Origin: an uncultured Bacteroidales bacterium
GTDB lineage: Bacteria > Bacteroidota > Bacteroidia > Bacteroidales > FEN-979
Direction of reading: 5' to 3'
Length of the DNA: 43,801 nt
NCBI GenBank assembly: GCA_903925275.1
Contig: CAIYES010000474.1
Location: forward strand, 1 to 43,801
The position numbers and the translations under genes were made by a program. Shown piece by piece: positions 26,335 through 42,491 of this stretch. Positions within the stretch are counted from its first letter, which is position 1, and each line of letters starts with the position of its first letter. The notes below the pieces were generated by a model. That model had not been told where the DNA came from and made no database searches. It saw only the letters and a program-made list of their open reading frames with translations.

Positions 26335-27519
26335 TCAGGTGCGCCCGTTGAATGAAATCGCCAGATAGGTTATATCATCCGATTGTATCATCCCGGCCGA
26401 AAAAGCACTTACCTCCTGCATCGAATCCTTCACCACATCTTCGACAGGGCAAGCGAGACGGGATTGCAGAAAGGTTTCCAGCCGCTCCTCACCATAAAGC
26501 TGATCCTGGGTATTGAAGGCCTCCGTTACGCCATCGGTAAACAGGAAAAGGGAATCGCCGGGTAAAAGTTTAATTCTTTTGGATTGATAATCGAAATCTT
26601 CCACACAACCCAGAATCGGGCCACCGGTCATTTCAACTTTACGAATTCCGGTTTCAGAAAGAATATACGGGGGATTGTGCCCGCCATTTACATATTCAAC
26701 CTCTCCGGTGGCCGAATTGAGTATGCCATAGAAAACAGTAACAAACATGCAGGAAACACTTTCGTTGCACAGCAGGTTATTGACATAGTTCATGCATTCA
26801 TCAGTCGGAAGGCCTTTCAAACCTGTTGCACGGATAAGGGTTCTGCTCACAGCCATGAAAATAGCGGCAGGCACCCCTTTACCGGAAACATCGCCAATTA
26901 CAAAACCCAGCCGGTTGTGGTCAATCATGAAAAAATCGTAAAAATCGCCCCCGACTTCTTTTGCCGCAACCATGGAGGCATAAATTCCAAAATCAGTCCG
27001 GTTCGGGAAAGGCGGAAAATTTTTGGGAAGAATGGCTTGTTGTATCTCCCGTGCCGTATTTAAATCCTGCCGGATAGAAATCAACTGATCATGTTCCTCC
27101 AGCGATTGCCTGATTTGTAAAATTTCATCGATGGTTTTATTGATGGTGATCTCAAGATCCTCAAAATTGACCGGTTTGGTAACAAAATCAAAAGCTCCCC
27201 TGTTCATGGCTGTCCGGATATTGTCCATATCACCGTAGGCTGATACGATCACCGTTTTCAATCCGGGATTTTTAAGTTCTTTCAACTTTGTGAGCAGCGT
27301 CAATCCATCCATTTCAGGCATGTTGATATCTGAAAGAATGATGCCGATTTCAGGATACTCGAGCAATTTGGCCAGCGCTTCAAGCCCATTGAAGGCAAAA
27401 AGAAAATCATAAATCCCTTCGCGGATCTGACGGCGGAACTTTTGACGAACCAACGGTTCGAGGTCGATTTCATCATCGACGACAAGGATTTTAATGTTGG
27501 AATGGGAACACGTATTCAT
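26335..27519 (-). CDS. Response regulator with SpoIIE-type PP2C phosphatase output
   Basis: A 394-residue regulator. The receiver domain (about 1-125) has the acidic pair VVDDE, phospho-acceptor D64 in LSDINMPEMDG, S93 and K115 in VTKPVN. A short coiled coil (about 120-165) leads to a PP2C-type SpoIIE serine phosphatase domain with metal-binding GGDFYDFF (D192) and GDVSGKG (D210). Such proteins usually dephosphorylate an anti-sigma-factor antagonist in a partner-switching circuit, but no STAS or anti-sigma gene is in this window. It lies 5 bp downstream of the histidine kinase gene at 27525-28394, its likely cognate kinase. Confidence 0.93.
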   Translation of the reverse strand: MNTCSHSNIKILVVDDEIDLEPLVRQKFRRQIREGIYDFLFAFNGLEALAKLLEYPEIGIILSDINMPEMDGLTLLTKLKELKNPGLKTVIVSAYGDMDNIRTAMNRGAFDFVTKPVNFEDLEITINKTIDEILQIRQSLEEHDQLISIRQDLNTAREIQQAILPKNFPPFPNRTDFGIYASMVAAKEVGGDFYDFFMIDHNRLGFVIGDVSGKGVPAAIFMAVSRTLIRATGLKGLPTDECMNYVNNLLCNESVSCMFVTVFYGILNSATGEVEYVNGGHNPPYILSETGIRKVEMTGGPILGCVEDFDYQSKRIKLLPGDSLFLFTDGVTEAFNTQDQLYGEERLETFLQSRLACPVEDVVKDSMQEVSAFSAGMIQSDDITYLAISFNGRT

Positions 27520-27524
27520 AATAT

Positions 27525-28394
27525 TTAAGTTGTTTTTGGTAACCTTATGATAAACTCGGCGAATTCTCCTTCTGTTGATTCTACCCTGATCTCGCCGTGA
27601 TGTTGATTTACAATAATGTCGAAACTGATCGACAATCCAAGGCCGGTACCTGATCCTGCGGGTTTCGTTGTAAAAAAAGGATTAAATATTTTTTCTGTTG
27701 ACAACGGTGGGATCCCATTTCCGTTATCCCTGATACGAATTTCAACCTGATCTCCAAGATTCCTGGTACTGGTCTTCAGCACAGGGCTGTAAAATGCTGG
27801 TTGTTCTTTCTTTTTTTGATGAGTTGCATAGCAGGCGTTGTTGATGAGGTTCAGAAAAACCCGGCCGATATCCTGCGGCACAATGCTTATCAGCCCGATG
27901 GAGGGATCATAATCATGCTCGATTTTAATGTTGAATGTATTGTCTGATGCCCGCTGCCCATGATAACCAAGGTTGACATACTCAGCAAGCATGGCGTTAA
28001 TATCAGTCGGAACCCGTTCACCCGATTTTCCATGGGCATAAAGCAGCATCCCGCGAATGATGCTGTCGGCACGCATACCATGTTCACTGATTTTTTTGAG
28101 ATTGCCACTCATATCGTCAAGGATCCCGTTCAGATATTCAGCTTCGGGCGGATCTATTGATTTGCCAAGCTTATCAATTTCCGCAATTAATTCCTGGATC
28201 AGTTCCAGTGTTAGTTCAGAAAAATTTTTAATGAAATTAAGCGGGTTTTTGATCTCATGGGCAATTCCTGCAGTAAGCAGGCCAAGGGTTGCCATTTTCT
28301 CGCATTCAACAAGTTGTTTCCGGGCGTTTCTTAATTGATCCTCTATTTTCTCCGTTTCCGAAGAACTTTTTGAATCGTATCTGACTTCATCCAT
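27525..28394 (-). CDS. Cytosolic histidine kinase of the regulator-phosphatase pair
   Basis: A 289-residue soluble kinase with no membrane segments. A short coiled coil (about residues 12-35) precedes the phospho-acceptor H46 in GIAHEIKNPLNF. The ATPase domain has N-box NLINNACYA, G1 IRDNGNGIP and F/G2 FFTTKPAGSGTGLGLS. Having no sensor domain, it probably responds to a partner protein. The core (SEYVNLAYHG-like AEYVNLGYHGQRA, IPQDIGRV, NPFFTTKPAG) closely matches that of the 1246-residue kinase at 38116. Its gene is followed by the receiver-SpoIIE gene and is divergent from the STAND NTPase gene. Confidence 0.93.
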   Translation of the reverse strand: MDEVRYDSKSSSETEKIEDQLRNARKQLVECEKMATLGLLTAGIAHEIKNPLNFIKNFSELTLELIQELIAEIDKLGKSIDPPEAEYLNGILDDMSGNLKKISEHGMRADSIIRGMLLYAHGKSGERVPTDINAMLAEYVNLGYHGQRASDNTFNIKIEHDYDPSIGLISIVPQDIGRVFLNLINNACYATHQKKKEQPAFYSPVLKTSTRNLGDQVEIRIRDNGNGIPPLSTEKIFNPFFTTKPAGSGTGLGLSISFDIIVNQHHGEIRVESTEGEFAEFIIRLPKTT

Positions 28395-28491
28395 ATCCCG
28401 AATTTATATTGAGGATAAAAGTAGCGGATTTTCCGGTTAATTGGATTTTTTCATCGAAAAAGATTTTTCAAGTATTTTTCCCTGATTATCA

Positions 28492-28499
28492 TAAATTTG
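28492..28499 (+). promoter_or_regulatory. Promoter -7 element of the STAND NTPase operon
   Basis: TAAATTTG is an exact TAnnTTTG match 27 bp before the ATG at 28527. The in-frame TTG at 28497 lies inside it and so is unlikely to be a start codon. The -33 region is T-rich but without a clear TTG. The position fits the first gene of the plus-strand run to 42491. Confidence 0.55.
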
Positions 28500-28526
28500 T
28501 TACATAATCAATTTCTCAAACCATCC

Positions 28527-31500
28527 ATGGCACCAACCCTTCTCCACGAAAACCCATTTCCAGGTATCCGGAGTTACGAAATTCATGAAGATGAGCTGTT
28601 TTTCGGCAGGGAACTTCAAGTAAGGGAACTTATCGAAAAATTATCTCAGACGCGGTTTCTGGCCATCGTCGGATCATCAGGTTGCGGCAAATCTTCGCTG
28701 ATCAAGGCCGGTGTTGTTCCTGCCTTGCTTAAAAACAAAACCGACCACTTCGCCACAACCTGGAAATTGAGTATTTTCCGACCTTCTGATGATCCGATCG
28801 GGAACCTTGCGAAGTCTTTGGCAAACGGCTATATCAGCGCAGAAGCCATTGAAGCAGAACTGCGTTCGGGAAAAGATGGACTGGTGAAAATTTTAACTAA
28901 GATCGACAACCCTGCGGAACAATCAAGGTTGATCATCATTGACCAGTTTGAAGAGTTGTTCCGGTTTAAAAAAAGCAGGAGTTCGTTCCAAACCATTCTC
29001 GAAACCTCCGCATTCGTTGATCTTCTTCTTACCGCCATCATTCACACTGAAATTCCGGTTTACATTGTACTTTCAATGCGTACCGATTTTCTGGATGAAT
29101 GCACCGAATTCAGAGGCCTCAGCGAAGTGATCAACAAAGGATATTACCTGGTTCCCAGGATGAACAATGATGAAAGGCGACTCGCGATTACAGGACCAGT
29201 GAATATCAAAGGGTGCAATATTACGGATGAATTGGTTGAACGCCTTTTAAATGACGTCGGAGATGACCCCGATCAATTGCCCATCATGCAACATGCCCTG
29301 ATGCGGACCTGGGAGTTTTGGACAATCAACCGTATCGGCGAAAAACCCATCGGGTTGGAGCATTATATCGCCATCGGAACCATGAAAGAGGCGCTTTCTG
29401 TTCATCTCGAAGAAATTTTCAATGACCTAAAAGATCATCACAACAAATATATTGCTGAAAAATTATTCAAAGCCCTTACCGATATCACCAAGGAAAACCG
29501 CGGAACACGCCGTCCGACACAACTGAGCGAAATCATCACGCTGGCCGAAGCCCGGCAGGAGGAGATCATAAGGGTAATCGACAGCTTCAGGAAACCGGGA
29601 TGTGCATTTCTGATGCCATCGGCACATGTGGAACTCGATGCGGATTCAACAATCGATATTTCGCATGAGAGTATCATGCGGGTTTGGATCAGGTTGCGGA
29701 AATGGGTCGAAGAAGAGAGCCGGTCGGCACAGCTCTATTTGCGGCTTTCAAAATCAGCCGAGCTCTTCCAGGAAGGGAAAACAGGATTGTGGATAAATCC
29801 GGAACTGCAACTTGCTTTACAGTGGAAAGATCAAACCAAACCGAATGCCACCTGGGCGATGCGATATGATCCCGCATTCGACCGGGCCATCACCTTTTTG
29901 CAATACAGCAAAAAACAAAACGAACTGGAACTGTCAAAAAAGGAGAATCAGCAAAAACGGAATCTCAAACGGGCCAGAACCTCCGCCATCATTCTTGGTA
30001 TCGCTTCTGTCATTTCGATCCTTTTCCTTCTCATCTCACTCAACCTCCGTTTTAAGGCAGAAAGCAGCCGGAAAGAGGCCATTGAAAAGGAAAAACTGGC
30101 TGTTTATGAACGTAAACGGATGGAGGAACAAAGCAAAGAAGCAATTCTCCAGAAGAAGATTTCGGAGCAGCAACAGCATATTGCCGAGCAACAAAAACTG
30201 ATTACTGAACAGCAAAGACAATACGCGGTCAAACAGCAGGTCATTGCTCAGGAACAAACTACTGTTGCAGTTCATCAGAAAAAGAAAGCTGATGAATCGA
30301 AGCAAGAGGCCCTTGTTGCGCGGGATGAAGCTCAATCGCAGCGTAAAGAAGCAATTGCACAAAAGCTGAATGCCGACAAAGAGCGGATAAAAGCTGAAGA
30401 ATCTGAGAAAAACACACAACGGCTGAGACTGCTCTCCATATCCCGTTCCATGGCCATCCAGGCCAGCCAGTTGAGCAACACAGTGCGTGACGATTTGCCA
30501 GGTTTGCTCGCAGTAGAGGCCTATCAAATCAACAAAGAAAACGGCGGCTTGCAGAATGACCCGGTTGTCTACAGTGCCCTGTCGGTGATTTCAAACGACC
30601 AGGTCATTCTTCGTGGCCACGATGAGGGAGTGCGGTCAATCGTCCTGTCAAAAAACGGCAAAACACTGTTTTCATGCGGGGATGACGGCAAACTGCTGAT
30701 GTGGAACCTCGACAATATGCAGTCACCGCCGAGCCGGCTCGAAATGCCGAAACAGGGGCAGCATTCATTACGGTCCGTTGGGCTGACCCATGATGAACGT
30801 TGGCTTATTGCCGGCTCAACAAACGGTAACCTGGTAATCTGGAACCGCAGTTCGCTCAAAACTTTACCCCGGTTAGTACCAGGACATACCTCGGTGTTGA
30901 ATGAACTGGCCATGCACCCCGTAAAAAATATTTTTGCATCTGCGGGTTCAGATGGGAAACTCCTGCTGTGGAAGTATGATAATGACCTGTTTACAAAAAC
31001 GCTGATCGACTCGGTTGCAGGGAAAATCAATTGCGTTTCATTTAGTCCCGATGGTTCACGGCTGGCTTATGGCACCGGAAACGGAGCAATCAAAACAATT
31101 TCCATGAACGAACAGCTTGCCCTTCCGGTCATCCTGCTGGGTTCGGGCAATGCCGTTCTTTCCATAGCCTTCAGTAATGATGGAAAATCGCTTGCAGCGG
31201 GGTTATCCAATGGAACCATCAAGGTATGGAATATGACTGACCCTTCAGCCAGACCACAGGAGATATTGGGGCGTCATGCTTCGGGTGTAACGGCATTGAC
31301 ATTCAGTAAGGATGACGGCGAACTTGCTTCATCAAGCTACGACCGTACCATGAAACTATCCGGGTTCCCTTCACAGGAGGCAAAACCAATTTCAATCGAA
31401 AACCATGAACTGTGGGTATATGATATCCTTTTCACACCCGACAATACTCAATTGATTTCATGCAGTGCTGATAAAACAATCCGGATCGTTTCAACTGAAA

Positions 31501-31619
31501 ATGCCAGGATGGCCGAAAAACTGAGAACCATGTTAAAACGAAATTTGACCACCGAGGAATGGAAAAAAATGGTTGGCGTAGACATCCCATATAAAAAAAC
31601 CCGATCTGATCTTCCATGA
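28527..31619 (+). CDS. nSTAND1-type NTPase with membrane segment, coiled coil and WD40 propeller
   Basis: A 1030-residue protein from the ATG at 28527. The STAND NTPase region (about 1-440) starts with ENPFPGIRSY and has Walker A GSSGCGKS (49-56), Walker B LIIIDQFEE (about 135-143) and the terminal DISHESIMRVW motif of the nSTAND1 group. One membrane helix (about 486-508) follows, then a glutamine-rich coiled coil (about 510-635, AEQQKLITEQQRQY), then seven WD40-like blades (about 670-1010), such as GHDEGVRSI...LLMWN. STAND proteins are ATP switches that open on ligand binding and oligomerise. Here the propeller would be the sensor, on the other side of the membrane if the helix is real. No nuclease or protease effector is fused. 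Confidence 0.9.
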   Translation: MAPTLLHENPFPGIRSYEIHEDELFFGRELQVRELIEKLSQTRFLAIVGSSGCGKSSLIKAGVVPALLKNKTDHFATTWKLSIFRPSDDPIGNLAKSLANGYISAEAIEAELRSGKDGLVKILTKIDNPAEQSRLIIIDQFEELFRFKKSRSSFQTILETSAFVDLLLTAIIHTEIPVYIVLSMRTDFLDECTEFRGLSEVINKGYYLVPRMNNDERRLAITGPVNIKGCNITDELVERLLNDVGDDPDQLPIMQHALMRTWEFWTINRIGEKPIGLEHYIAIGTMKEALSVHLEEIFNDLKDHHNKYIAEKLFKALTDITKENRGTRRPTQLSEIITLAEARQEEIIRVIDSFRKPGCAFLMPSAHVELDADSTIDISHESIMRVWIRLRKWVEEESRSAQLYLRLSKSAELFQEGKTGLWINPELQLALQWKDQTKPNATWAMRYDPAFDRAITFLQYSKKQNELELSKKENQQKRNLKRARTSAIILGIASVISILFLLISLNLRFKAESSRKEAIEKEKLAVYERKRMEEQSKEAILQKKISEQQQHIAEQQKLITEQQRQYAVKQQVIAQEQTTVAVHQKKKADESKQEALVARDEAQSQRKEAIAQKLNADKERIKAEESEKNTQRLRLLSISRSMAIQASQLSNTVRDDLPGLLAVEAYQINKENGGLQNDPVVYSALSVISNDQVILRGHDEGVRSIVLSKNGKTLFSCGDDGKLLMWNLDNMQSPPSRLEMPKQGQHSLRSVGLTHDERWLIAGSTNGNLVIWNRSSLKTLPRLVPGHTSVLNELAMHPVKNIFASAGSDGKLLLWKYDNDLFTKTLIDSVAGKINCVSFSPDGSRLAYGTGNGAIKTISMNEQLALPVILLGSGNAVLSIAFSNDGKSLAAGLSNGTIKVWNMTDPSARPQEILGRHASGVTALTFSKDDGELASSSYDRTMKLSGFPSQEAKPISIENHELWVYDILFTPDNTQLISCSADKTIRIVSTENARMAEKLRTMLKRNLTTEEWKKMVGVDIPYKKTRSDLP

Positions 31620-31651
31620 TTTGACAGCGGTTATAAACAAATGAATTGATT

Positions 31652-34252
31652 ATGCATCAGATTTATAAACTTAGGGCAGTTTGCCGGATACTAATGATCC
31701 TCGCTTACGGGATCTTTATCCTGTCTGTTTCAGCAAGGGCCCAGGAATGCAGTGATGTTACCCTGAACGAAGCCCGTAAATCTTACGAAATAGGTAAGTT
31801 TTCAGAGGTTATCCGTATGTTGCATCCCTGCATCGAACGTGGATTCAATGAAAAACAAAAGGTGGAGGCGTACCATTTGTTGGCCATGACCTATATTGCC
31901 ATTGATTCGACCGACCAGGCTGCTGTGGAAACAGGGTATCTGATACAGATAAATCCGACCTATGAGGCAAATCTCTTTGACCCTCCGGCCTTTATCCGGA
32001 TGGTAAACAACCTGAAACTTACAGGGGGCATCCAGGTGGTAACTTCGGTCTCCAAAAAAGCTGAAAACATTTATGAAGCACCGGCAACAATCGTTGTAGT
32101 TACACGGGAAGACATTAAAAAACGGGGTTACAATGATCTTGTGGAATTGCTTAAGGACGTCCCCGGCTTTGATCTTACCATGTTCTATGGCCCGGAATAC
32201 GCCAATATTTACCAGCGTGGTTTTCGTCAGAACAACACGGAAAAAACCCTGTTGTTGTTTGACGGCATTGAGGAGAATGATCTTTGGACAAACTGGGCAT
32301 ACCTCGACCGGCAATATCCTTTATCGAATATTGAAAGGGTGGAAATCATTTACGGTCCGGCCTCCACGATGTATGGTCCCAACGCCTTTGCCGGAGTGAT
32401 CAACGTAATTATGCAAAATTCGGCTGATGCAATTAAACCAGGCCGAAGCATTGGCATCAGCGCCAATGTTGATTATGGCACCTACAACACACAAACGGTA
32501 GATCTGAGCTTATCGGGAAAACGGCGGAACATCTCATTTACGGTTACCGGCAGATTGTTTCATTCCAATGAAATGGATATTTCGAGCCAGAAATATTTTA
32601 ACTACGATCCTGCTGTTTACGACGGTGTAGATTACAATAAACTGCTGGATATCTCAGTCGGAGCAAAGCAATACCTGATCGCAAACAACCTCCCTTTCTC
32701 CAATCCTTATTATCAGCTCTCTGCCGATTCAACTCAGCTTACCCTGACCCCATTGGGCGCAGAATCCGCCCGAAATCTCGATAAATCAGCGTATGATCAA
32801 ATCGTGAATGGTCATAAAATTGGTTTTTCCAATCCAACCAACAGCTGGCTTCTGAACGGGAAAGTGAAAATCGGAAACTTCACGATAGGTTTTCAAACCT
32901 GGAAATACAGCCGGGGCGGAACAACCCAGTACACCGACACTTATGTTGCCGGCTCCGACAATGGATTCAACTGGGTACCCCAGCTGAGTTATTTCTTTGC
33001 AAAATACGAAAACCAAATCAGTGAAAAAGTCTTCTTCTCTAATCTTACAACTTACCGTATTCATGCAGTAACGGATGAAACAAGCTTTGTTTCTGTCTCC
33101 AATTATGCGCGTGGCAACAAAAAACTCACCGACCTTGTCAAAAATAAAACTCCTGACTGGATCACATTATATATGTATGAACTCTCAAAACAGCTTCGTA
33201 CAGAGTTCAAGGTCATATACCGCCCGGTTTCGAGGTTCGATCTGGTTTCGGGTCTCGAAATAAGAAACAGTACCCTGCAGGGTGCTTACTATACCAGCCT
33301 TACCCCTACGCCACAGGATTCATCTGTAATCCTGCCTTCTCCAAAAGGAGGAAACGAATTTAATGTCTGGGATATTGGTGTCTATTCCCAGGGAACTTTC
33401 CAGGCATTCCGTAAATTCAAAATCACTTTCGGGATTCGTTACGACTATAACCAGGTCCGCGATAAAGATGGGTTTGGCAACGAACTCAGCCCCCGCGTTG
33501 CCCTGGTTTATTCACCGGGGAAATTTACCATTAAGGCCATTTATTCCCGGGGAATCATGAACGTGTCGAACTGGACAAAATATTCGGCTGCAGGGAACCG
33601 CATCGCCAACCCGTCGCTGAAAACGGAAAACATGCAGAATATCGAACTCAGTGCCGGATTCCGTTTGAACAAAGCATTCCATGCGGATGTTACAATTTAC
33701 CGCGACTTTATTAACAATGTGGTGGGCACGGTAAAAGTGCCAGGCAGTTCGGGAATAGTCCAGAACCAGAATATTGGAAAATTCCGGATCACAGGAGTGC
33801 AGGCCAACGCCGTTTATAAGATTGAATCATTTTCCGCCTATTTCAACTACACATTTTGTGATCCAAAACAAATCTTCTCCGAAGCAGGAGCGGTTGATAA
33901 CCGTGTCGGGGATATTTCCAGTCACCAGTTTAACATTGGAGCAGACAAGGAATTCTTCCGCCATCTGGATATTAACCTGCGCCTGAATTTTGTCGGGAGC
34001 CGTCCAACCGGCGAAGGGACCACCGTTCCATTAAATACCGGTGTTTTCCCGACAACCGCCATCCTGAACGGAGCCATCAGCTATTCAAATAACAAGATCG
34101 TTCCGGGACTTGCACTCCAGGTTGTATGCAATAATATTTTGAACACCACTTATTTCGATCCCGGAACCAAGGCTGCTGACGGAATTAACAGCCCGACCGA
34201 AATACTCCAGAGATCAAGACATTTTTTAATCAAACTTTCATATGACTTCTAA
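31652..34252 (+). CDS. TonB-dependent receptor with N-terminal TPR-like domain
   Basis: An 866-residue outer-membrane receptor. After the signal peptide (about 1-30, ending SVSARAQ) comes a TPR-like helical region (about 35-120) ending with PTYEANLFDPPAFI. The plug domain follows (about 125-260, with APATIVVVTREDI, DGIEEND and ERVEIIYGPAS), then a 22-strand-type barrel to the C-terminal phenylalanine (KLSYDF). The TPR-like region takes the place of the CarboxypepD_reg-like domain common in Bacteroidota receptors. There is no SusD gene nearby, so this is not a SusC. The ATG at 31652 is preferred to the in-frame TTG at 31646. The gene starts 32 bp after the STAND gene and its end overlaps the next gene by 11 bp. 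Confidence 0.93.
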   Translation: MHQIYKLRAVCRILMILAYGIFILSVSARAQECSDVTLNEARKSYEIGKFSEVIRMLHPCIERGFNEKQKVEAYHLLAMTYIAIDSTDQAAVETGYLIQINPTYEANLFDPPAFIRMVNNLKLTGGIQVVTSVSKKAENIYEAPATIVVVTREDIKKRGYNDLVELLKDVPGFDLTMFYGPEYANIYQRGFRQNNTEKTLLLFDGIEENDLWTNWAYLDRQYPLSNIERVEIIYGPASTMYGPNAFAGVINVIMQNSADAIKPGRSIGISANVDYGTYNTQTVDLSLSGKRRNISFTVTGRLFHSNEMDISSQKYFNYDPAVYDGVDYNKLLDISVGAKQYLIANNLPFSNPYYQLSADSTQLTLTPLGAESARNLDKSAYDQIVNGHKIGFSNPTNSWLLNGKVKIGNFTIGFQTWKYSRGGTTQYTDTYVAGSDNGFNWVPQLSYFFAKYENQISEKVFFSNLTTYRIHAVTDETSFVSVSNYARGNKKLTDLVKNKTPDWITLYMYELSKQLRTEFKVIYRPVSRFDLVSGLEIRNSTLQGAYYTSLTPTPQDSSVILPSPKGGNEFNVWDIGVYSQGTFQAFRKFKITFGIRYDYNQVRDKDGFGNELSPRVALVYSPGKFTIKAIYSRGIMNVSNWTKYSAAGNRIANPSLKTENMQNIELSAGFRLNKAFHADVTIYRDFINNVVGTVKVPGSSGIVQNQNIGKFRITGVQANAVYKIESFSAYFNYTFCDPKQIFSEAGAVDNRVGDISSHQFNIGADKEFFRHLDINLRLNFVGSRPTGEGTTVPLNTGVFPTTAILNGAISYSNNKIVPGLALQVVCNNILNTTYFDPGTKAADGINSPTEILQRSRHFLIKLSYDF

Positions 34253-35144
34253 CCCCGGACTATTTATGACGGATTTCATAAGAACCACAAACAAGGATTC
34301 ACGCTGGGGGGAATTTTATGAACCGGTCAGTCCGAAATTGAATTCAGGAAATGGACTGCGCGTTGTGCTTTTCGTTAGCTGCAACTGTGGCAATAACGTT
34401 TTAAATACTCTTTCACTGTTGGAACAAAAACATCCCGGTCTTCTGAATCTTACAGGTGTTGTTACCGATGATCCTGTGGATCCGGATGCAAGGATATCAT
34501 TGAAAAAAAGGATATGGAGCCAGTATACACCCGGCGAAAGAAGCGAACTCAAGAACAAAATCGTCAATAACTGCATGAAAATCGGAATCCCATGCTATAC
34601 CGGTGCAGTGAAAACAGATTATTTCCGTCACATTTATAAATCCTGGAATCCTGATATACTCATCATGTTTTGCTTTGGACAAAAGCTGGATTCCTTCCTC
34701 TTTGATTTTCCCGGGATGGGGTCTTATAATCTTCATCCTTCCGACCTCCCAAAGCAAATCGGTGCCGGGACCCAACCCTTCCAGAATGCCATACGCAATG
34801 GATTAAAAACCTCACCACTGGTGATACATCAGGTTACAGAACTCATCGACATCGGGCCCATTGTAGGAGTCTCTCCGCCAATAAACATTTGCCTGGCGGA
34901 TGGAACATATCCGAAAAGTTTGCTGACGCTGCTCGAAAAAATCACCAGTGTGGGCGGATGGATGAGTTTGCAACTTGTTTTAGAAATTATCATGCTCAAA
35001 ACCAGGGGCGAACCCGGGCCGTTGACCTGGATTGATTTTGAAAAAGAGTTACCGGAAGGGATCAAACATCTCCTGATGATGCCTGCGGTAGATGATCTTA
35101 CCGAGATGTACGAAGTACCGTTTCATCCCATACTTGTGAAATGA
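34242..35144 (+). CDS. Orphan formyltransferase-fold enzyme
   Basis: A 300-residue protein with the Formyl_trans_N fold of methionyl-tRNA and glycinamide formyltransferases, which use 10-formyl-tetrahydrofolate. The catalytic Asn, His and Asp are in place: N163 and H165 in SYNLHPSDLP and D203 in ELIDIGPIV. The usual LLPKYRG loop reads DLPKQIGAG. It lacks the C-terminal tRNA-binding domain of Fmt, has an N-terminal extension of about 35 residues, and contains a CNCG segment at 47-50. The start at 34242 overlaps the receptor gene; an ATG at 34266 is also possible. Its stop overlaps the next start as ATGA. Acceptor unknown: amino sugar, siderophore amine or peptide are all possible. Confidence 0.82.
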   Translation: MTSNPGLFMTDFIRTTNKDSRWGEFYEPVSPKLNSGNGLRVVLFVSCNCGNNVLNTLSLLEQKHPGLLNLTGVVTDDPVDPDARISLKKRIWSQYTPGERSELKNKIVNNCMKIGIPCYTGAVKTDYFRHIYKSWNPDILIMFCFGQKLDSFLFDFPGMGSYNLHPSDLPKQIGAGTQPFQNAIRNGLKTSPLVIHQVTELIDIGPIVGVSPPINICLADGTYPKSLLTLLEKITSVGGWMSLQLVLEIIMLKTRGEPGPLTWIDFEKELPEGIKHLLMMPAVDDLTEMYEVPFHPILVK

Positions 35145-38095
35145 CAACTGCTTCCATGAGACAGAAAGCGTGGTTTACGAAAATATTGAACATCCACACC
35201 GAGGAATTTAAACCGGTGCTTATGCTCATGGTTTTTTCGTTTTTTATCGGGCTGTCTCTTACATTTTATTTCACTGCATCCAATGCCATTTTCCTGAAAC
35301 ATTTCCCGCCAAAGATGATTCCTGTCTCATTTATTGCTTCCGGCGTCATTGTCTGTTTGGCCTGGTGGATTTTCTCATACTTCGATAAGAAATCGAGCTT
35401 ATCATGGCAGGTCACCATTAAATTTCTTTTTGTTTTTCTCACCGTTCTGGCTATCAGCATCGGTGTGTGGGCATTTGATACAGGCTGGCTGGCCTTTATC
35501 ATGTATACCTGGGTAAGGGTAATGGTTTATATCACCCTGGTTAATTTCTGGGGAGTGGCCGGCAGGCTTTTCAATATCCGGCAGGGAAAAAGGATTTTCG
35601 GATTGATCAGCATCGGAGAAGCCATTTCAATCATCATCGGATATTTTTCCATTCCGCTCATCCTGAAGTTTCTGAAGGTTCCCGATCTGCTCTTTCTGGC
35701 TTCATTTTCTCTTTTTATCTGTCTGGTCATGGTATTCCTGCTCTTCAGGACATTCAAACCCCAGCTTCACACTGCAAACATTCCTGCTGCTCAGTCACAA
35801 ACAATTGTCAGGTCGGAATGGAACTACTGGAACTTGCTTAAAAAGCCATATTTCCTCATGATTTCCCTGATGGCGCTGTTACCCATCTTCGGATATCTGT
35901 TCGTTGATTTTTTATTCCTGGCGCAAACGAAGCATGAATTTGCCAACAATCCGGAAACCATTGCCCGCTTCCTGGGTCTTTTTTTGGGATTTGTTGCCAT
36001 TCTGGAGTTAATTCTCAAACTTTTTTCGGGTTGGTTTTTAAATAAATACGGCCTGAAACCAAGTTTACTCTCACTCCCATTCATCCTCCTCTTCAGTATT
36101 TTTCTGGCTGCAGTATTCGGCTCTCTATATGGCACCGTGGGAATGTTTTTTGCGTTTATTGCCCTTGCCCGCCTGTTTGAACGATCCATCAGGGGTGCAG
36201 TTTATGAACCGGGTTTTCAATTGCTTTACCAACCTGTCCCGACCGATCAGCGGCTTGCATTTCAAAATCAGATCGAGGGAATTCCCAAGGCATTGGGCAC
36301 TGTAATTACAGGTGTAGTTATTTTACTCCTTTCCGGCATACATGCATTTAACCTGGTTCATTTCAACTGGATATTTATCATTGTTCTCGGGTTCTGGATA
36401 TGGATTGCCTTTAAAATGTATGAAGAGTACCGCAACATGCTTAAAACGAAGTTGAGCGAGCTTAAACATACTGAACAAAATGAGCAGGATCCAATGATTG
36501 CCCTGATCCGTCGAACTTTTTTAACCGCTGAACCCCGCCAGTTTAAAAAATTAGTCGAATTATTTGAAAAAGTCGGGCCGGCCGGCCTTGCAGAATCCTT
36601 CGAAGTCACCTCTGAAATTAATGCCACCCCGATAAAAGAAGCCATTCTGGAAAACACCGGAAAAAGTGAGGCAGAAGATTACCCTTTTGAATACATGGTT
36701 GAACTTGCCCGGTCGGAAGATGCCACAACCCGCCTCAGAGCGGCCCGCCTGCTTGGAACATCAGGGAGGTACAACACCTATAAACTCCTCATCAATCTTC
36801 TGAAAGATCCGGATCCCAATGTTAAAAAAGCTGCTATTCTTTCATCGGGAAAGATCAGGCGGGTTGAACTATGGCCTTTCATCATCGAAAATCTCGTCGT
36901 TCCCGAATATTGCCACTCGGCTGGTGTTGCTGCAAAAATTATCGGGGAGCCTATTCTGCCGGAAATGGACCGGTTTTTCGAAAAAATCGGCGGATTTAAG
37001 CCAATTCAGCTTAAAATCATCAGAATCTATGAATCCATCGGGGGTGCAATGGCCATAAAATTCCTGCGTGAAAAAATTTACCATCCCGACAATGATATCA
37101 GGTTCCAGGTATTGCTTTCATTAAGCAACCTGAACTACCATGCTGCTGCCTCTGAAATTCCATTTATTAAACAAACCATCGAAGATTCGGTGGAAACCAT
37201 GGTCTGGATTATGGCCTCCTTGTGTGATGTTACCGGGCCAAATGAAATAACCCGCCTTCAGGAGTCCCTTCTTCAGGAATTGGAAGAGAAAAAAGAGCAT
37301 GTATTCCTGCTGCTTTCTCTGCTGTATGATTCAAAAACCATCAGTCATATCCGCGGACACATTGAAAGTAAGGATACCAACGCAAAAATTTATGCCCTTG
37401 AAATCAGCGATATGCTGATTTCCGAAGAGATCAAAGAGCTGTTTCTTCCGATTTTTGAGGATCTGTCGATTCATGACCGGCTAAATCGTTTCAGCCAGCG
37501 CTTTCCGCAGGAAAAACTGAACCTGCATGAAAGGATCGAGGATATCATCAACAAAGATTATTCTAAAATTAATCGTTGGGTTAAAGCCTGCGCAATCGAA
37601 TTGCTGATGCATGTTCATAGCGCTGATTCAACGAAAACGGTTGAATTGCTTGCCTCCAACATGGTGAATCCTGATCCCCTCCTGGCAGAACTGGCCGGGT
37701 GGATACTTTTCAGCACATACAGGAATTACTACTTTGATACCCTGATCCGTTTTGAGAAAAAAGACAATGCCCGATTATCCGGGATTAACTTTAAAATTAA
37801 ATCCCGGGATAAGCATACTGCCCTGCTCTTATTTGAAAAGATCGTGCTGCTGAAAGATTCCGAATTCTTTGCTCCTGTTAATGAAATGCGCATCCTCAAC
37901 CTGGTTACGGGTATCGATGAAACCGCTGATGCTTCACATCTGATGTTGCAACAAGCGGGCGAATCGGCCGATGCAATGACTATACCCTCTGAAAACGGAT
38001 ATATCATGCATATTCCAAGGGAGAATTTATTTGAATGGATGACCGGAGACTCTGTATTGACAGAACGGTATCTGCGTTTATTTTGTAATACGTAA
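35141..38095 (+). CDS. ATP/ADP-translocase-like membrane protein with HEAT and cNMP-like regions
   Basis: A 984-residue protein. Residues about 20-435 contain about twelve membrane helices resembling the Npt/ATP:ADP antiporter branch of the MFS, with LFNIRQGKRIFGLISIGEA as a family-like loop. A soluble part follows with HEAT-like repeats (about 500-800, e.g. TTRLRAARLLGTSGRYNTYK and DPDPNVKKAAILSSGKIRR). The C-terminal stretch (about 905-984) resembles a worn cyclic-nucleotide-binding domain (LLKDSEFFAPVNEMRIL near its start). Whether it still transports nucleotides or acts as a membrane sensor is unknown. The start overlaps the formyltransferase stop by 4 bp, and the propeller kinase gene begins 20 bp later. 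Confidence 0.82.
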   Translation: MTTASMRQKAWFTKILNIHTEEFKPVLMLMVFSFFIGLSLTFYFTASNAIFLKHFPPKMIPVSFIASGVIVCLAWWIFSYFDKKSSLSWQVTIKFLFVFLTVLAISIGVWAFDTGWLAFIMYTWVRVMVYITLVNFWGVAGRLFNIRQGKRIFGLISIGEAISIIIGYFSIPLILKFLKVPDLLFLASFSLFICLVMVFLLFRTFKPQLHTANIPAAQSQTIVRSEWNYWNLLKKPYFLMISLMALLPIFGYLFVDFLFLAQTKHEFANNPETIARFLGLFLGFVAILELILKLFSGWFLNKYGLKPSLLSLPFILLFSIFLAAVFGSLYGTVGMFFAFIALARLFERSIRGAVYEPGFQLLYQPVPTDQRLAFQNQIEGIPKALGTVITGVVILLLSGIHAFNLVHFNWIFIIVLGFWIWIAFKMYEEYRNMLKTKLSELKHTEQNEQDPMIALIRRTFLTAEPRQFKKLVELFEKVGPAGLAESFEVTSEINATPIKEAILENTGKSEAEDYPFEYMVELARSEDATTRLRAARLLGTSGRYNTYKLLINLLKDPDPNVKKAAILSSGKIRRVELWPFIIENLVVPEYCHSAGVAAKIIGEPILPEMDRFFEKIGGFKPIQLKIIRIYESIGGAMAIKFLREKIYHPDNDIRFQVLLSLSNLNYHAAASEIPFIKQTIEDSVETMVWIMASLCDVTGPNEITRLQESLLQELEEKKEHVFLLLSLLYDSKTISHIRGHIESKDTNAKIYALEISDMLISEEIKELFLPIFEDLSIHDRLNRFSQRFPQEKLNLHERIEDIINKDYSKINRWVKACAIELLMHVHSADSTKTVELLASNMVNPDPLLAELAGWILFSTYRNYYFDTLIRFEKKDNARLSGINFKIKSRDKHTALLLFEKIVLLKDSEFFAPVNEMRILNLVTGIDETADASHLMLQQAGESADAMTIPSENGYIMHIPRENLFEWMTGDSVLTERYLRLFCNT

Positions 38096-38115
38096 CAATG
38101 CATAAATGAAGGACT

Positions 38116-41100
38116 ATGAATAAATTGGTCATTCCCTTCTTTTTATTTTTCTTCGCCGGGATTATCATGGGGCAAACCACCCATGAAACTGAACATGGTT
38201 TTCCGTTTATCAAAAATTTCTCTGCTGCCGATTACAAAGCCCATGCACAGAATTTTGCCATTGTCCGCGACCGCGACGGGATACTCTATTTCGGTAATTT
38301 TGCCGGGGTCTTGCAATACGACGGTGAATTTTGGCGATTGATACCAACAGAAAAAACCACCAAAGTATCTGCATTGGGCATCGACAGCAGCGGGAAGGTT
38401 TATGTTGGTGCGCTTGGTGAAATCGGTACTCTTGAATCTGACACCCACGGAAAATTATCTTTTAAAAGCTTGATCGCTTCAGCAGGAGCTAAAGTCCCTT
38501 CCTTCCAGGATGTTATGCAGATATTTCCAACTCAGGATGGCGTTTATTTCATCACCGAAAGAATTGTTTTCCTGTGGCACAACGGGAAACTTGATTATTG
38601 GAAACCGGAATATCAAATAATTTCCGGGTTTTATGTTTATCAAACCCTTTATCTTCAGGTAAAAGATAAGGGATTGATGATTTTCAGGAACGGAATATTG
38701 AATCCTGTGGCAAATGGAGGATTTGTGTCGGATGCCGTCGAAATCAAGGCAATGCTCCCTTATCCGGGGAATCAGGTGCTCATTGCAACAGGAACGCAGG
38801 GGTTGTACCTTTTTGATTCGACCGGAATGAGGGATTTTATTACGCAATCGGATGATTTGTTTATGAAAAACCTGATCACCTGCGGGGTTTCCCTGTCCGA
38901 TGGTTCCTATGCCATCGGCACATCCCGCATGGGAGTTTTTGTCATAGAAACCGACGGTAAAGTCAGGCAGATAATCGATAAAAAAGCATCCTTACGGAAT
39001 GAGAATGTACAAGCGTTGTTTGCAGATGACAATAACATGCTGTGGGCCGCTTTGAACAATGGAATTGCGATGATTGAAATACCTTCGCCCCTGACCTTTT
39101 TTGATGAAAAATCGGGGTTGAATGGAGCCGTCAACCATATTCTGCGTCACAACAATACGTTGTATGTGTCAACATATCAGGGTCTCTTTTATTATGACGA
39201 AAAATCGTTCGGGTTCCAGTCTGTCCCCGAAATTATTACTGCAAGCTGGTCTGTTGCTCCGTTTGGGCATAATTTACTCGCGGCTACATCACAGGGTGTT
39301 TTTCTGGTTTCTGATCATCATGCCAAACTGGTCAGGGAGGGATTTATCCTTTCGCTGGTGTGTTCCCGGTCTGATAATCCTGTCGTTTATCTGGGTGAAA
39401 TGGGCGGGTTATACAGCATGCAGAACCTGAATGGACAGTGGAAATCGCGGAAACTATCTGGTTCTGAAGAAGAAATAAACGATCTGCTTCAGGATTCTGG
39501 AGGAAATATATGGGGCTCAACCCTGACAAAAGGAATTTTCAGATACGCACCTGTTACAGATACCCTTGAATTTTTTACTCAATCGGCAGGATTGCCTGAA
39601 ACCATCGGAAGTACCATTAACATAATCTGGGGAAAGATAAGTGTATCTACCCGTGAAGGAGTTTTCCTTTTTGATGACGCCAGTCATTCGTTCAACAGGA
39701 TAACCCTTGTAAAAAAGGATACTGCAGCCGATAACCATTGGCTTTCAATGATTACCAGCGACAACCGGGGCGATTTGTGGGTGAATTCGGGTGATGAGAC
39801 CCATGTAATGCTGCTGAAGAAAAAGGGTGGAACCTTTGAACCTTTCCAGACTCCATTTCTCCCGATTGCCGATTATGTAATCTGTGCCATTGCCCCCGAA
39901 CCCGATGGTGTTACATGGTTTGGAGGTCCCGAAGGGCTTATCAGATACAATCCTGCTGTAAAAACCTTAAAACCCGATCCTTATCCGACACTCATACGGC
40001 AGATCACCACACACAATGATTCGATTATAATCGCCGGAAATATATGCACTACCAACGGACTCCCCCCTCCTGATATCACCATTTTCAGATACCAGGACAA
40101 CTCTTTGCGTTTTGAATTTTCAGCGCCATTTTATTCGCCAAAAGGGGAAAATCAGTACCAATATCTGCTCGAAGGGTTCGAAGAGACCTGGTCGGACTGG
40201 ACCTCCCAGACACATAAAGAATATACAAACCTCCCGAAAGGAACATTCACCTTCCATGTGAAAGCCCGCAATATTTATGGCAAGATTGCCCGCGAGGCAA
40301 CGTTCAGTTTCCGGATCCTCTCTCCCATGTACACAACCATCTGGGCCTACATGATCTATTTCTTTCTCGCTGCAGGCTTGATATACCTGATTGTGATCGT
40401 TCGAAACCGCCAGCTTCTGAAGGAAAAACATATTCTTGAACAACGAATCGCTGACCGAACGGCGGAAGTGGTGCAGCAAAAAGAGGAAATTGAGATGCAA
40501 TCGGAGGAACTCGCCAATAAGAATGATGAACTTGAAAAGATCAATACCACCGTTAAATCGATCAATTCGGAAATTAACTTCGAAAACCTGCTTCAATCGC
40601 TGCTCGAAAAAATGAAGGTCATCCGATCGGTGGAAAAATCGACGGCGCTGGTTTTCGATAAAAACATTGATGCATTCAAATTTAAAGCCAGTTTTGGCCG
40701 GGAATTACGACAACTTGCAGATGTCAAACTCAGTTTAAATGAGGCTGAAAAACGCTATTTGAAAAACGCAGAAGAGGTATATGAAGATATTTTTCTGAAA
40801 ACGGATTTCACCGGATGGGACGGTATTGCCGCCATGAATGAACCTGCAAATCCAAAATCGATGCTTGTCATGGTTATCAGGGTGGAAAACAGGGTAGAAG
40901 CTTTTCTCATCCTTGAGAATATGAACCGGCAACACGCCTTTGAATCCAAAGATCTGAGCTTCATAAAAAATTCGAAGGAACACATCATTTCGGCATTTAT
41001 CCGTACCAGAATCCTGGAAGATTTGCAACATACCCTCCAAAATCTCAAAGACACCCAGGATCAACTGGTGCAGTCGGAAAAACTAGCCTCCCTCGGCGCG

Positions 41101-41856
41101 CTGATGGCCGGTATTGCCCATGAAATTCAGAACCCGTTGAATTTTGTCAATAATTTTTCCTCTTTATCTGCTGATCTCTCCGATGAGCTTCTTGCATTTT
41201 TAAAAGATATGAAAGGCGTTCTGCCTGATGACAAATATGCCGATGTCGAAGAGGTGATCGGGATGATCAAAGGGAATGTGAAAAAAATCAACGATCACGG
41301 AAAGCGTGCCGAAAGTATTGTAAAAGGGATGTTACAACATTCGCGGGGAAAAACCGGCGAATATGAACTGGCGGAGATCAACAACCTGGTTTCAGAGTAT
41401 GTCAACCTTGCCTATCACGGTATGCGGGCAAAAGATAAAAGCTTTAACACCAGTATCAAAACACAATTGGATCCGGAGGTAGGCAAAGCCAGCATTATCC
41501 CGCAGGATCTGAGCCGTGTAATTCTCAACATTGTTAACAATTCATGTTATGCCCTTGATGAAAAAGTAAAACAACATATCCCGGGATTCAGCCCCGAAGT
41601 GGTCATCAGTACAAAAAAAATAAACGACAAAATTGAAATCAGGATCAGGGATAATGGAACCGGTATACCGGAACATGTGCGCGAAAAAATATTCAACCCG
41701 TTTTTCACGACCAAACCCGCAGGTCAGGGAACAGGTTTGGGATTGTCGATGAGCTACGACATTGTAACACAGATCCACAAGGGAAAATTAGAGGTGAAAT
41801 CCATGGATGGAAAATTTACGGAATTTATCATTACCATCCCTGAAAAGCAATCCTGA
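38116..41856 (+). CDS. Regulator-propeller sensor histidine kinase
   Basis: A 1246-residue sensor. It has a signal peptide (1 to about 19, ending IIMGQ), two-component regulator propeller repeats over about 40-640 (e.g. DNNMLWAALNNGIAMIEIP), a Y_Y_Y domain (about 660-735, FEETWSDWTSQ...YTNLPKGTF), one membrane helix (about 745-765), a coiled coil, a GAF-like region (about 815-960), and a kinase core. The core has H1002 in GIAHEIQNPLNF and HATPase motifs RDNGTGIP and GQGTGLGLS. Unlike hybrid regulators of polysaccharide loci, it has no receiver or AraC-type output. The core closely resembles the kinase at 27525-28394. It is probably co-transcribed with the receptor and transporter genes upstream. 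Confidence 0.92.
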   Translation: MNKLVIPFFLFFFAGIIMGQTTHETEHGFPFIKNFSAADYKAHAQNFAIVRDRDGILYFGNFAGVLQYDGEFWRLIPTEKTTKVSALGIDSSGKVYVGALGEIGTLESDTHGKLSFKSLIASAGAKVPSFQDVMQIFPTQDGVYFITERIVFLWHNGKLDYWKPEYQIISGFYVYQTLYLQVKDKGLMIFRNGILNPVANGGFVSDAVEIKAMLPYPGNQVLIATGTQGLYLFDSTGMRDFITQSDDLFMKNLITCGVSLSDGSYAIGTSRMGVFVIETDGKVRQIIDKKASLRNENVQALFADDNNMLWAALNNGIAMIEIPSPLTFFDEKSGLNGAVNHILRHNNTLYVSTYQGLFYYDEKSFGFQSVPEIITASWSVAPFGHNLLAATSQGVFLVSDHHAKLVREGFILSLVCSRSDNPVVYLGEMGGLYSMQNLNGQWKSRKLSGSEEEINDLLQDSGGNIWGSTLTKGIFRYAPVTDTLEFFTQSAGLPETIGSTINIIWGKISVSTREGVFLFDDASHSFNRITLVKKDTAADNHWLSMITSDNRGDLWVNSGDETHVMLLKKKGGTFEPFQTPFLPIADYVICAIAPEPDGVTWFGGPEGLIRYNPAVKTLKPDPYPTLIRQITTHNDSIIIAGNICTTNGLPPPDITIFRYQDNSLRFEFSAPFYSPKGENQYQYLLEGFEETWSDWTSQTHKEYTNLPKGTFTFHVKARNIYGKIAREATFSFRILSPMYTTIWAYMIYFFLAAGLIYLIVIVRNRQLLKEKHILEQRIADRTAEVVQQKEEIEMQSEELANKNDELEKINTTVKSINSEINFENLLQSLLEKMKVIRSVEKSTALVFDKNIDAFKFKASFGRELRQLADVKLSLNEAEKRYLKNAEEVYEDIFLKTDFTGWDGIAAMNEPANPKSMLVMVIRVENRVEAFLILENMNRQHAFESKDLSFIKNSKEHIISAFIRTRILEDLQHTLQNLKDTQDQLVQSEKLASLGALMAGIAHEIQNPLNFVNNFSSLSADLSDELLAFLKDMKGVLPDDKYADVEEVIGMIKGNVKKINDHGKRAESIVKGMLQHSRGKTGEYELAEINNLVSEYVNLAYHGMRAKDKSFNTSIKTQLDPEVGKASIIPQDLSRVILNIVNNSCYALDEKVKQHIPGFSPEVVISTKKINDKIEIRIRDNGTGIPEHVREKIFNPFFTTKPAGQGTGLGLSMSYDIVTQIHKGKLEVKSMDGKFTEFIITIPEKQS

Positions 41857-41876
41857 AGACAATAAATCCATTCTCC

Positions 41877-42491
41877 ATGAAGAAACTGTTTTTCTGTTTT
41901 TTTATTGGTCTTCTGATGACTTCCTTGGCCGGCGGACAATCAATTTTCAAGATCAACCAATACAATACCTATTACAATAAAGCACTGATGCCCGTTATCA
42001 CGCTGTTTTCAAATTATCAGTTCAATAAAAAAATCGGGATTACGAGCTATTTTTATGTGAACGCTTATTCAAAAAACAGTTGGGGGGAAGGGTTGGCGGG
42101 GGTAACCTATACTCCGGTGACAGGAGTTTCGATAGGTTTCCTTGCCGGTTTGCAATCGAATGAAACGGAAATCTGGCGGGTTTCACCGATAATTATGCTC
42201 AGCAATAAACAATTTTCCTTTTTTGGTGCGTTTGAATTTGGCGGAAAACGATACCGATGGGATGCGATGGGGTTTTATTCAGTGAAAGCATTCAAATTTG
42301 GCGCCGAGTTCATACGTTATTACCGCATGTTTGCAGCCGGACCGCGTGTTGAATTTTCGTTTGTCAGGAAACAACCCATTACTGTTTTTTACAGTGGATT
42401 ATGGGACTGGACCTATGGCCGTTATGCCTCAATGTTCGGAATTTTTTCGACCTTCGGTTCTTTCAGAAAAATTGCTGCTGTTGAAGAATAA
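41877..42491 (+). CDS. Small predicted outer-membrane beta-barrel protein
   Basis: A 204-residue protein with a signal peptide (about 1-20, ending LAGGQ). The mature part consists of short alternating strands rich in aromatic residues (e.g. ITSYFYVNAYSKNSW and GVSIGFLAGLQ), as in small outer-membrane beta-barrels. I recognise no named family. It starts 20 bp after the propeller kinase gene and probably closes the operon. A role as an outer-membrane component or sensor of the same module is a guess from position. Confidence 0.75.
   Translation: MKKLFFCFFIGLLMTSLAGGQSIFKINQYNTYYNKALMPVITLFSNYQFNKKIGITSYFYVNAYSKNSWGEGLAGVTYTPVTGVSIGFLAGLQSNETEIWRVSPIIMLSNKQFSFFGAFEFGGKRYRWDAMGFYSVKAFKFGAEFIRYYRMFAAGPRVEFSFVRKQPITVFYSGLWDWTYGRYASMFGIFSTFGSFRKIAAVEE

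Follow-up and report, generated by a model that had tools for sequence, protein, structure and literature searches.

A conserved gene module with a TonB-dependent receptor and an exchangeable enzyme slot, a candidate trans-envelope signalling operon of Bacteroidota

Gene Organization of the Locus

The stretch of DNA analyzed here (the window; 43,801 nucleotides of contig CAIYES010000474.1, assembly GCA_903925275.1) belongs to an uncultured Bacteroidales bacterium and carries, between positions 26335 and 42491, eight genes (A to H) that form a conserved module. They are organized in two tight divergent units, as described in an initial annotation made by a model from the sequence; all eight open reading frames (ORFs) lie where it had placed them and their spacings agree with its account. 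The minus-strand unit comprises gene A (26335–27519), coding a response-regulator receiver and a SpoIIE/PP2C phosphatase (PF00072, 76 bits; PF07228, 173 bits) that would be the output stage, and gene B (27525–28394), coding a cytosolic histidine kinase with its H-box present (HisKA PF00512, HATPase_c PF02518). The A–B gap is 5 bp. A gap of 102 bp between ORFs (28395–28496) separates B from the divergently oriented gene C and is predicted to harbour the promoters of both units.

The plus-strand unit starts with gene C (28497–31619), whose product combines an nSTAND1 NTPase domain (PF20703, 303 bits), a transmembrane (TM) helix (residues 497–515), a coiled-coil-like stretch and a WD40 part (PF00400). 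Gene D (31646–34252), 26 bp downstream, codes a TonB-dependent receptor whose plug (PF07715) and barrel (PF00593) are preceded by an N-terminal helical TPR-like domain. A TTG start was called for C and D, with an in-frame ATG 10 codons (C) and 2 codons (D) downstream. Gene E (34242–35144) overlaps D by 11 bp and F by 4 bp; it codes a formyltransferase-fold enzyme (PF00551 Formyl_trans_N) and occupies the slot that is exchanged in other loci (see below). The product of gene F (35141–38095) has an NTT membrane domain, HEAT repeats and a degenerate cyclic-nucleotide-binding-like C-terminus (HEAT_2 and profile matches). Gene G (38116–41856), 20 bp after F, codes a periplasmic propeller, a Y_Y_Y domain, a TM helix (residues 744–762) and a histidine kinase (His 1002), as read from Pfam and a TM scan; HATPase_c, Y_Y_Y and Reg_prop are above the Pfam cut-off and HisKA, with 23.9 bits, is below it (26.9). 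The kinase cores of B and G share 50% identity across 267 residues, which bears out the claim that they are close relatives. Gene H (41877–42491), spaced by 20 bp from G, codes a small secreted and possibly outer-membrane protein; the gene is found as annotated, and Pfam and NCBIfam scans gave no family match.

Conservation of the Module

A scan of species genomes, in which the best 80 of 264 relatives of F were retained, yielded 79 named loci; 13 loci duplicating named ones were dropped before counting. The 86 sources annotated with purpose-built hidden Markov models (HMMs), the window included, comprise 69 loci with D upstream of F (D-type loci), 7 of a distant TIR type and 10 that are short or different (L044, L121 and L138 differ, the others are cut short). 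All locus counts presuppose a close F, and the set still contains near copies.

C and D are adjacent in 64 of the 69 D-type loci (median gap 11 bp), an enzyme gene lies between D and F in 68, and F and G are adjacent in 64, with a median gap of 6 bp over the 69 F–G pairs of all 86 loci. The five loci where C is absent (L063, L067, L099, L109, L116) all end there, as do four of the five where G is absent (L086, L099, L109, L110). The fifth, L137, is the sole one of the eight loci with a missing neighbour that is not explained by a contig end and is truly without G. The gene order C-D-enzyme-F-G persists to ~30% identity. Homologues of H were found in 30 D-type loci and those of A within the examined stretch of 29. 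The divergent A–B unit is confined to near relatives of the window, a point that the initial annotation had missed; in other loci B and A come after G, in the same orientation. By record name, carriers include Runella, Arundinibacter, Persicitalea, Mucilaginibacter, Prolixibacteraceae and Ignavibacteria. Two further record names probably reflect binning or naming errors: L074, named Alphaproteobacteria, has a C nearly identical to that of the Bacteroidales locus L073, and L111, named Gracilibacteria, carries a Bacteroidota-like locus.

In a scan of 149 genomes of the order (F at E ≤ 1e-20, C at E ≤ 1e-60), C was found in 31, F in 35 and both in 29; these tallies are lower bounds because at most 5 or 6 candidates were scored per genome. 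Their co-occurrence has a Fisher p of 1e-22, an optimistic value since the genomes are related. The two genes lie no more than 15 kb apart in 24 of the 29 genomes and on separate contigs in the remaining 5. Near full-length D was detected in 14 of the 149 genomes, directly adjoining C in 14 of 14, and a fifteenth has a partial match only. The eight genes are thus a real, conserved module. Independent scatter of the genes in related genomes had been named beforehand by the initial annotation as the finding to look for against it; the order C-D-enzyme-F-G is instead kept elsewhere. That unrelated genes happen to stand side by side could be argued from the wide occurrence of their single domains, but this has a negligible probability and is ruled out by the co-occurrence and by an order retained across many families.

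An Exchangeable Enzyme Slot that Follows the Receptor

The slot between D and F holds an exchangeable small-molecule enzyme of five types. In the 69 D-type loci it codes a formyltransferase (35), a protein resembling HMGL and isopropylmalate synthases (12), a GNAT-1 (11) or GNAT-2 (7) protein or a methyltransferase (3), and is empty in one. The GNAT-2 label was given to any remaining single slot gene not coding 275 or 277 amino acids (L124 received it without alignment or scan), and the methyltransferase type was assigned by a domain scan on L118 only. An Asn-His-Asp triad characterises N10-formyl-tetrahydrofolate formyltransferases; the corresponding N163, H165 and D203 are invariant in 29 of 29 aligned slot formyltransferases and are predicted to be catalytic. 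The AlphaFold2 (AF2) model of E (pLDDT 89) has Fmt, WbkC and ArnA as nearest solved folds. GNAT-1 proteins lack a meaningful Pfam match, and their assignment to the GNAT fold came from an AF2 model (pLDDT 78.7) and Foldseek (best hit 4ua3, E 6e-9). Searched against solved structures, the GNAT-1 and GNAT-2 profiles matched acetyltransferases only weakly and in a generic way, and the GNAT-2 profile matched no FeeM or LuxI chain. Two GNAT-2 proteins were scanned with Pfam: that of L103 passes the FeeM cut-off (30.9 versus 27) and that of L114 stays below it (20.4). The HMGL-like enzymes carry R-D-G-x-Q and H-x-H-x-D motifs in 12 of 12 cases, probably catalytic, and are accompanied by a small extra protein in 11 of 12. 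A gene pair coding a ~283 amino acids lipoprotein-like protein and a ~1020 amino acids ABC transporter follows the operon in L063, L065, L066, L069, L070, L071, L073, L074, L095, L098 and L103. It spans three enzyme types and may export what the enzyme makes; its Pfam/NCBIfam identification was made on L103 only, with scores below the NCBIfam cut-offs.

Of the gene trees, that of the receptor D fits the enzyme type best, ahead of F, C and G; the initial annotation had noticed neither this nor the exchangeability of the slot. In FastTree trees, which took in 61 to 68 of the 69 loci, enzyme type changes 5 times on the D tree (the minimum being 5; 66 sequences), 8 times on that of F (68) and 9 times on that of C (61). 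IQ-TREE trees of 38 common loci gave 4 changes for D (minimum 4), 5 for F and 8 for C, and those of 35 loci gave 4, 5, 8 and 9 for D, F, C and G. The 38-locus trees omit L137 and every locus without a long C, D or F, and of the formyltransferase loci they retain only 9. Although D and F are equally close to the slot, the F tree fits the enzyme type less well.

Topologies were compared by the approximately unbiased (AU) test. The GNAT-2 group and the GNAT-1 group without L097 are both clades in the D tree. A GNAT-2 clade is rejected by C (p 6e-6), F (p 2e-51) and G. The GNAT-1 clade without L097 is likewise rejected by C (p 1e-50), F (p 0.002) and G, and D rejects the arrangement found for C and F, in which L103 and L108 group with four GNAT-1 loci (p 6e-6); the p values for these two groupings are optimistic because the groups were defined post hoc from the trees. 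L097 was excluded from the GNAT-1 tests because the D tree puts it elsewhere, an exclusion that favours a shared history of receptor and enzyme. The pattern of trees and AU tests is the one expected if D and the enzyme were exchanged jointly, in at least two places, within an otherwise conserved operon.

Envelope Proteins C, D and F

A simple hydropathy scan placed a TM segment within residues 400–600 in 62 of 63 C homologues, with an excess of Lys/Arg on its N-side in 61 of the 62; a Walker A pattern is present in 60 of 63. The window copy has two further, weaker hydrophobic segments, within the NTPase and WD40 parts. From the TM position and the charge bias, the STAND domain should therefore face the cytosol and the WD40 part the periplasm. 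The latter compartment should also hold the N-terminal helical domain of D, and we infer a contact between D and C.

The initial annotation had called D a TPR-type TonB receptor. The receptor part of this assignment holds; the N-terminal domain has no Pfam TPR match and gave a weak TssQ-type match (E 0.0005), so that “TPR” is a reading only. D also scores, below cut-off, with hemin and siderophore receptor models. The seven distant loci of TIR type (L037, L041, L042, L043, L136, L139, L140) have F, a membrane SpoIIE protein with HAMP, a TIR-like protein and C. In five of the seven, the gene after C codes a small barrel with a helical N-domain similar to that of D (L043 ends there and in L136 none was found). 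All seven are without a labelled D homologue and none has an enzyme among the module genes. The TIR-like gene of L042 gave weak matches to TIR_2 (PF13676, 17.5 bits, below the cut-off of 28) and DUF4062.

The kinship of F with ATP/ADP translocases, proposed by the initial annotation, was recovered with a profile of 12 F homologues, which matched the solved ADP,ATP carriers 9j3n (E 7e-16) and 9j3j (E 2e-12). A phmmer search with a single F sequence found HEAT proteins only; the carrier relationship needed the profile. The latter also matches alphaRep HEAT and cGMP-kinase domains (E 6e-10). HEAT repeats (PF13646) were found in 12 of the 12 homologues and the cyclic-nucleotide-binding domain (cNBD; PF00027) in 2 of the 12; at this domain the window copy shows a long gap in the alignment. 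These profile matches (carriers, HEAT, cyclic-nucleotide-binding) place F with the NTT-HEAT(-cNBD) proteins, whose function was described as unknown (Major et al. 2017, PMC5381601). F shares with them the domain order NTT-HEAT-cNBD-like (PMC5381601), its nucleotide-binding-like end in the window differing from theirs by being degenerate. Passages of that article mention a neighbouring cNBD gene but not the present operon.

Kinases, Phosphatase and Partner-Switching Genes

All 20 B homologues examined have the H-box and none has a predicted TM segment. Among 61 full-length G proteins the kinase H-box is present in 35, and 6 of these loci also have B. In 16 others the kinase His is replaced by Asp, with the ATPase box retained in 15, and B is present in 14 of the 16. 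Nine of the 61 have SpoIIE joined to the propeller of G, and one G (L097) is truncated. The three states of G (active kinase, Asp-type accompanied by B, SpoIIE fusion) point to one phosphatase output.

Genes coding STAS and RsbW-like proteins both lie beside the operon in 19 of the 69 D-type loci. The pair is directly upstream of C in 15 of them (10 on the same strand, 5 divergent), two genes upstream in 2, and downstream after A in 2. In L028, STAS (80 bits) and HATPase_c_2 (78 bits) follow A directly; their identity was confirmed by Pfam on this locus only and assigned by the purpose-built HMMs elsewhere. A pattern search recognised the serine motif of STAS in 26 of 33 sequences, and some SpoIIE metal motifs were found in only part of 29. 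The three states of G offer contextual support for a path that runs from G through B and A to the STAS and RsbW-like proteins. The partner-switching output proposed by the initial annotation is backed by these neighbours at the relatives' loci and not at the window locus, where no STAS/RsbW-like pair was found beside the operon.

Similar domains occur on another contig of the window genome (C339; locus L002), where a 791-amino-acid ORF combining SpoIIE and an RsbW-like HATPase_c_2 is followed by a STAS gene. They are the nearest relatives in that genome (STAS 64% and ATPase part 45% identical to those of L035). This ORF would hold a phosphatase and its opponent within one protein; the case for partner switching is unaffected by the fusion because it is based on the loci of relatives. 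Further STAS genes are present elsewhere in the window genome. STAS is fused to an unnamed C-terminal domain of ~290 amino acids in L064–L066, L069, L073, L074 and L088, beside A in six of these loci and one gene off in L088; on contig C219 of the window genome such a fusion adjoins a substrate-binding-protein-like ORF. A glycogen-debranching/isoamylase-type gene lies just upstream of the STAS-RsbW pair in L108, L114, L118, L123 and L128 (by Pfam in L123, by eye in the others).

Comparison with Known Systems

In pyoverdine cell-surface signalling systems the ligand is made by the cell itself. The TonB-dependent cell-surface signalling systems FecA-FecR-FecI, FpvA-FpvR and PupB-PupR resemble the module: their TonB receptor carries an additional periplasmic domain at its N-terminus and stands beside an inner-membrane protein that crosses the membrane once and has its C-terminal part in the periplasm (PMC7186176). 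The module differs from them by a STAND-WD40 protein in the inner-membrane place and by a SpoIIE phosphatase as output. D was found by Pfam (E ≤ 0.001) to have plug and barrel but no STN domain, and Pfam/NCBIfam scans, limited to the eight proteins, found no FecR-type regulator and no extracytoplasmic function (ECF) sigma factor. Membership in classical cell-surface signalling was rejected on these grounds.

SpoIIE is common to the module and to partner-switching systems (SpoIIE/RsbU - STAS - RsbW), and STAS and HATPase_c_2 accompany it in relatives; the module differs in subordinating the phosphatase to a receiver plus one or two histidine kinases, or in fusing it to a propeller, and no sigma factor turned up as a target, no search having been aimed at one. 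Propeller sensor kinases with Y_Y_Y domains are known from Bacteroidota. G resembles them in its Reg_prop, Y_Y_Y, TM and kinase parts but differs in that no DNA-binding output was found; moreover, of 61 proteins 16 have Asp in place of the kinase His and 9 have SpoIIE where the kinase would be. The GNAT-2 protein of L103, unlike that of L114, passes the FeeM cut-off and may be related to the synthases of N-acyl amino acids and autoinducers (FeeM, LuxI); the window carries a formyltransferase instead. To our knowledge no family shares the core of STAND-WD40 protein, TonB receptor with TPR-like domain, NTT-HEAT protein and exchangeable enzyme. The single modules are known, but because no known family has this core we consider the module a new kind of system. 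A search of the open-access literature, which covered neither subscription papers nor preprints, found no title or abstract start describing this operon.

Interpretation

We give about an even chance to the proposal that the module is a trans-envelope signalling operon in which the slot enzyme makes or tailors the ligand. The outer-membrane receptor D would bind this small molecule, produced or tailored by the slot enzyme (E in the window), and its periplasmic helical N-domain would signal to the periplasmic WD40 part of C. C would cross the inner membrane once, its cytosolic STAND NTPase acting as a switch. In a second arm, the periplasmic propeller sensor kinase G and the cytosolic kinase B would phosphorylate the receiver of A, whose SpoIIE phosphatase would dephosphorylate a STAS antagonist and so free or trap an RsbW-like regulator. 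F may couple the system to the nucleotide state or be a scaffold. Physical contacts, direction of signal flow, ligand and output all belong to the proposal. It agrees with that of the initial annotation, in which outer-membrane ligand sensing is coupled to a putative ATP-switch protein and a partner-switching output, and which is supported overall.

Several observations weigh against this proposal. Within D, the TPR-like part requires 8 changes of enzyme type (91 columns, little support) as compared to 4 for plug and barrel, and its TPR assignment is weak. The changes rise with distance from the slot (4, 5, 8 and 9 for D, F, C and G), so that linkage explains part of the fit between enzyme and receptor. 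The contrast between D and F depends on few exchange events, and L097 is an exception, with a GNAT-1 enzyme and a D placed elsewhere. L137 has D, a vacant enzyme slot and no G. Six of the 35 genomes with F-like proteins have no C, and A was not found in the examined stretch of 40 of the 69 D-type loci, some of which are truncated and six of which have a G-SpoIIE fusion. The RsbW-like domain of the window genome sits in another SpoIIE protein with an adjoining STAS gene. The loci are mostly contigs of metagenome-assembled genomes, with near copies among them.

The strongest rival, which we regard as rather unlikely, is regulated uptake of a nutrient or metallophore: D would import an environmental compound for intracellular modification by the slot enzyme, the role of the kinases and the STAND protein being limited to the regulation of uptake. 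The fold of D is that of a plain TonB receptor, with the sub-cut-off likeness to hemin and siderophore receptor models, and its shared history with the enzyme would fit a transporter and its processing enzyme equally well. However, the module genes include no inner-membrane importer or catabolic pathway, the slot enzymes are of acyl-, formyl- and methyl-transfer and condensing types, and the signalling content is heavy. A small probability goes to an envelope-state sensor, in which the system would monitor a glycan or lipid of the cell surface that the enzyme tailors. E resembles sugar N-formyltransferases, WbkC and ArnA being among its nearest solved structures, and one or two small, possibly outer-membrane proteins are coded within the operon; yet methionyl-tRNA and glycinamide ribonucleotide formyltransferases are about equally near E, and the module genes include no glycosyltransferase. 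We also know of no action of HMGL-like and FeeM-like enzymes on nucleotide sugars, which counts against this alternative.

A conflict or anti-phage system built around the STAND NTPase is more improbable still. It could be argued from the distant C-F loci with a TIR-like gene (below cut-off) and from the naming of nSTAND1 in predicted counter-invader systems (PMC8195603). Against it stand the outer-membrane receptor, two-component and partner-switching parts, and PADLOC gave no real support for a defence assignment of the module, with only weak matches for C (18 bits) and no match to any of the remaining seven proteins.

A more specific version of the signalling proposal is tentative and has to be held with less confidence than the proposal itself. 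The module would be an autoinducer-like cell-cell signalling family of Bacteroidota in which the slot enzyme makes the signal and D receives it, synthase and receptor being swapped as a cassette into a fixed chassis of STAND, NTT-HEAT, propeller kinase and SpoIIE proteins. Different species would then use different chemical dialects. If the enzyme makes the ligand, small-molecule communication in Bacteroidota would become directly testable in the Runella, Arundinibacter, Persicitalea and Mucilaginibacter carriers. Trans-envelope signalling by the module would assign functions to three classes of orphan protein, namely the nSTAND1-WD40 membrane proteins, the NTT-HEAT proteins and the TonB receptors with a TPR-like N-domain, and would show a STAND NTPase acting as a trans-envelope relay.

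Neighbouring Genes

A zinc alcohol dehydrogenase gene (42651–43598, plus strand; PF08240, PF00107) starts 159 bp after H. It is found in 9 of the 69 D-type loci, as a neighbour in near relatives only, and its membership in the module is unsure. On the other side, the segment 23321–26278 adjoining the module codes a SNF2-type helicase with good scores against the DpdE and ZorD models of PADLOC, which is probably a generic SNF2 protein.

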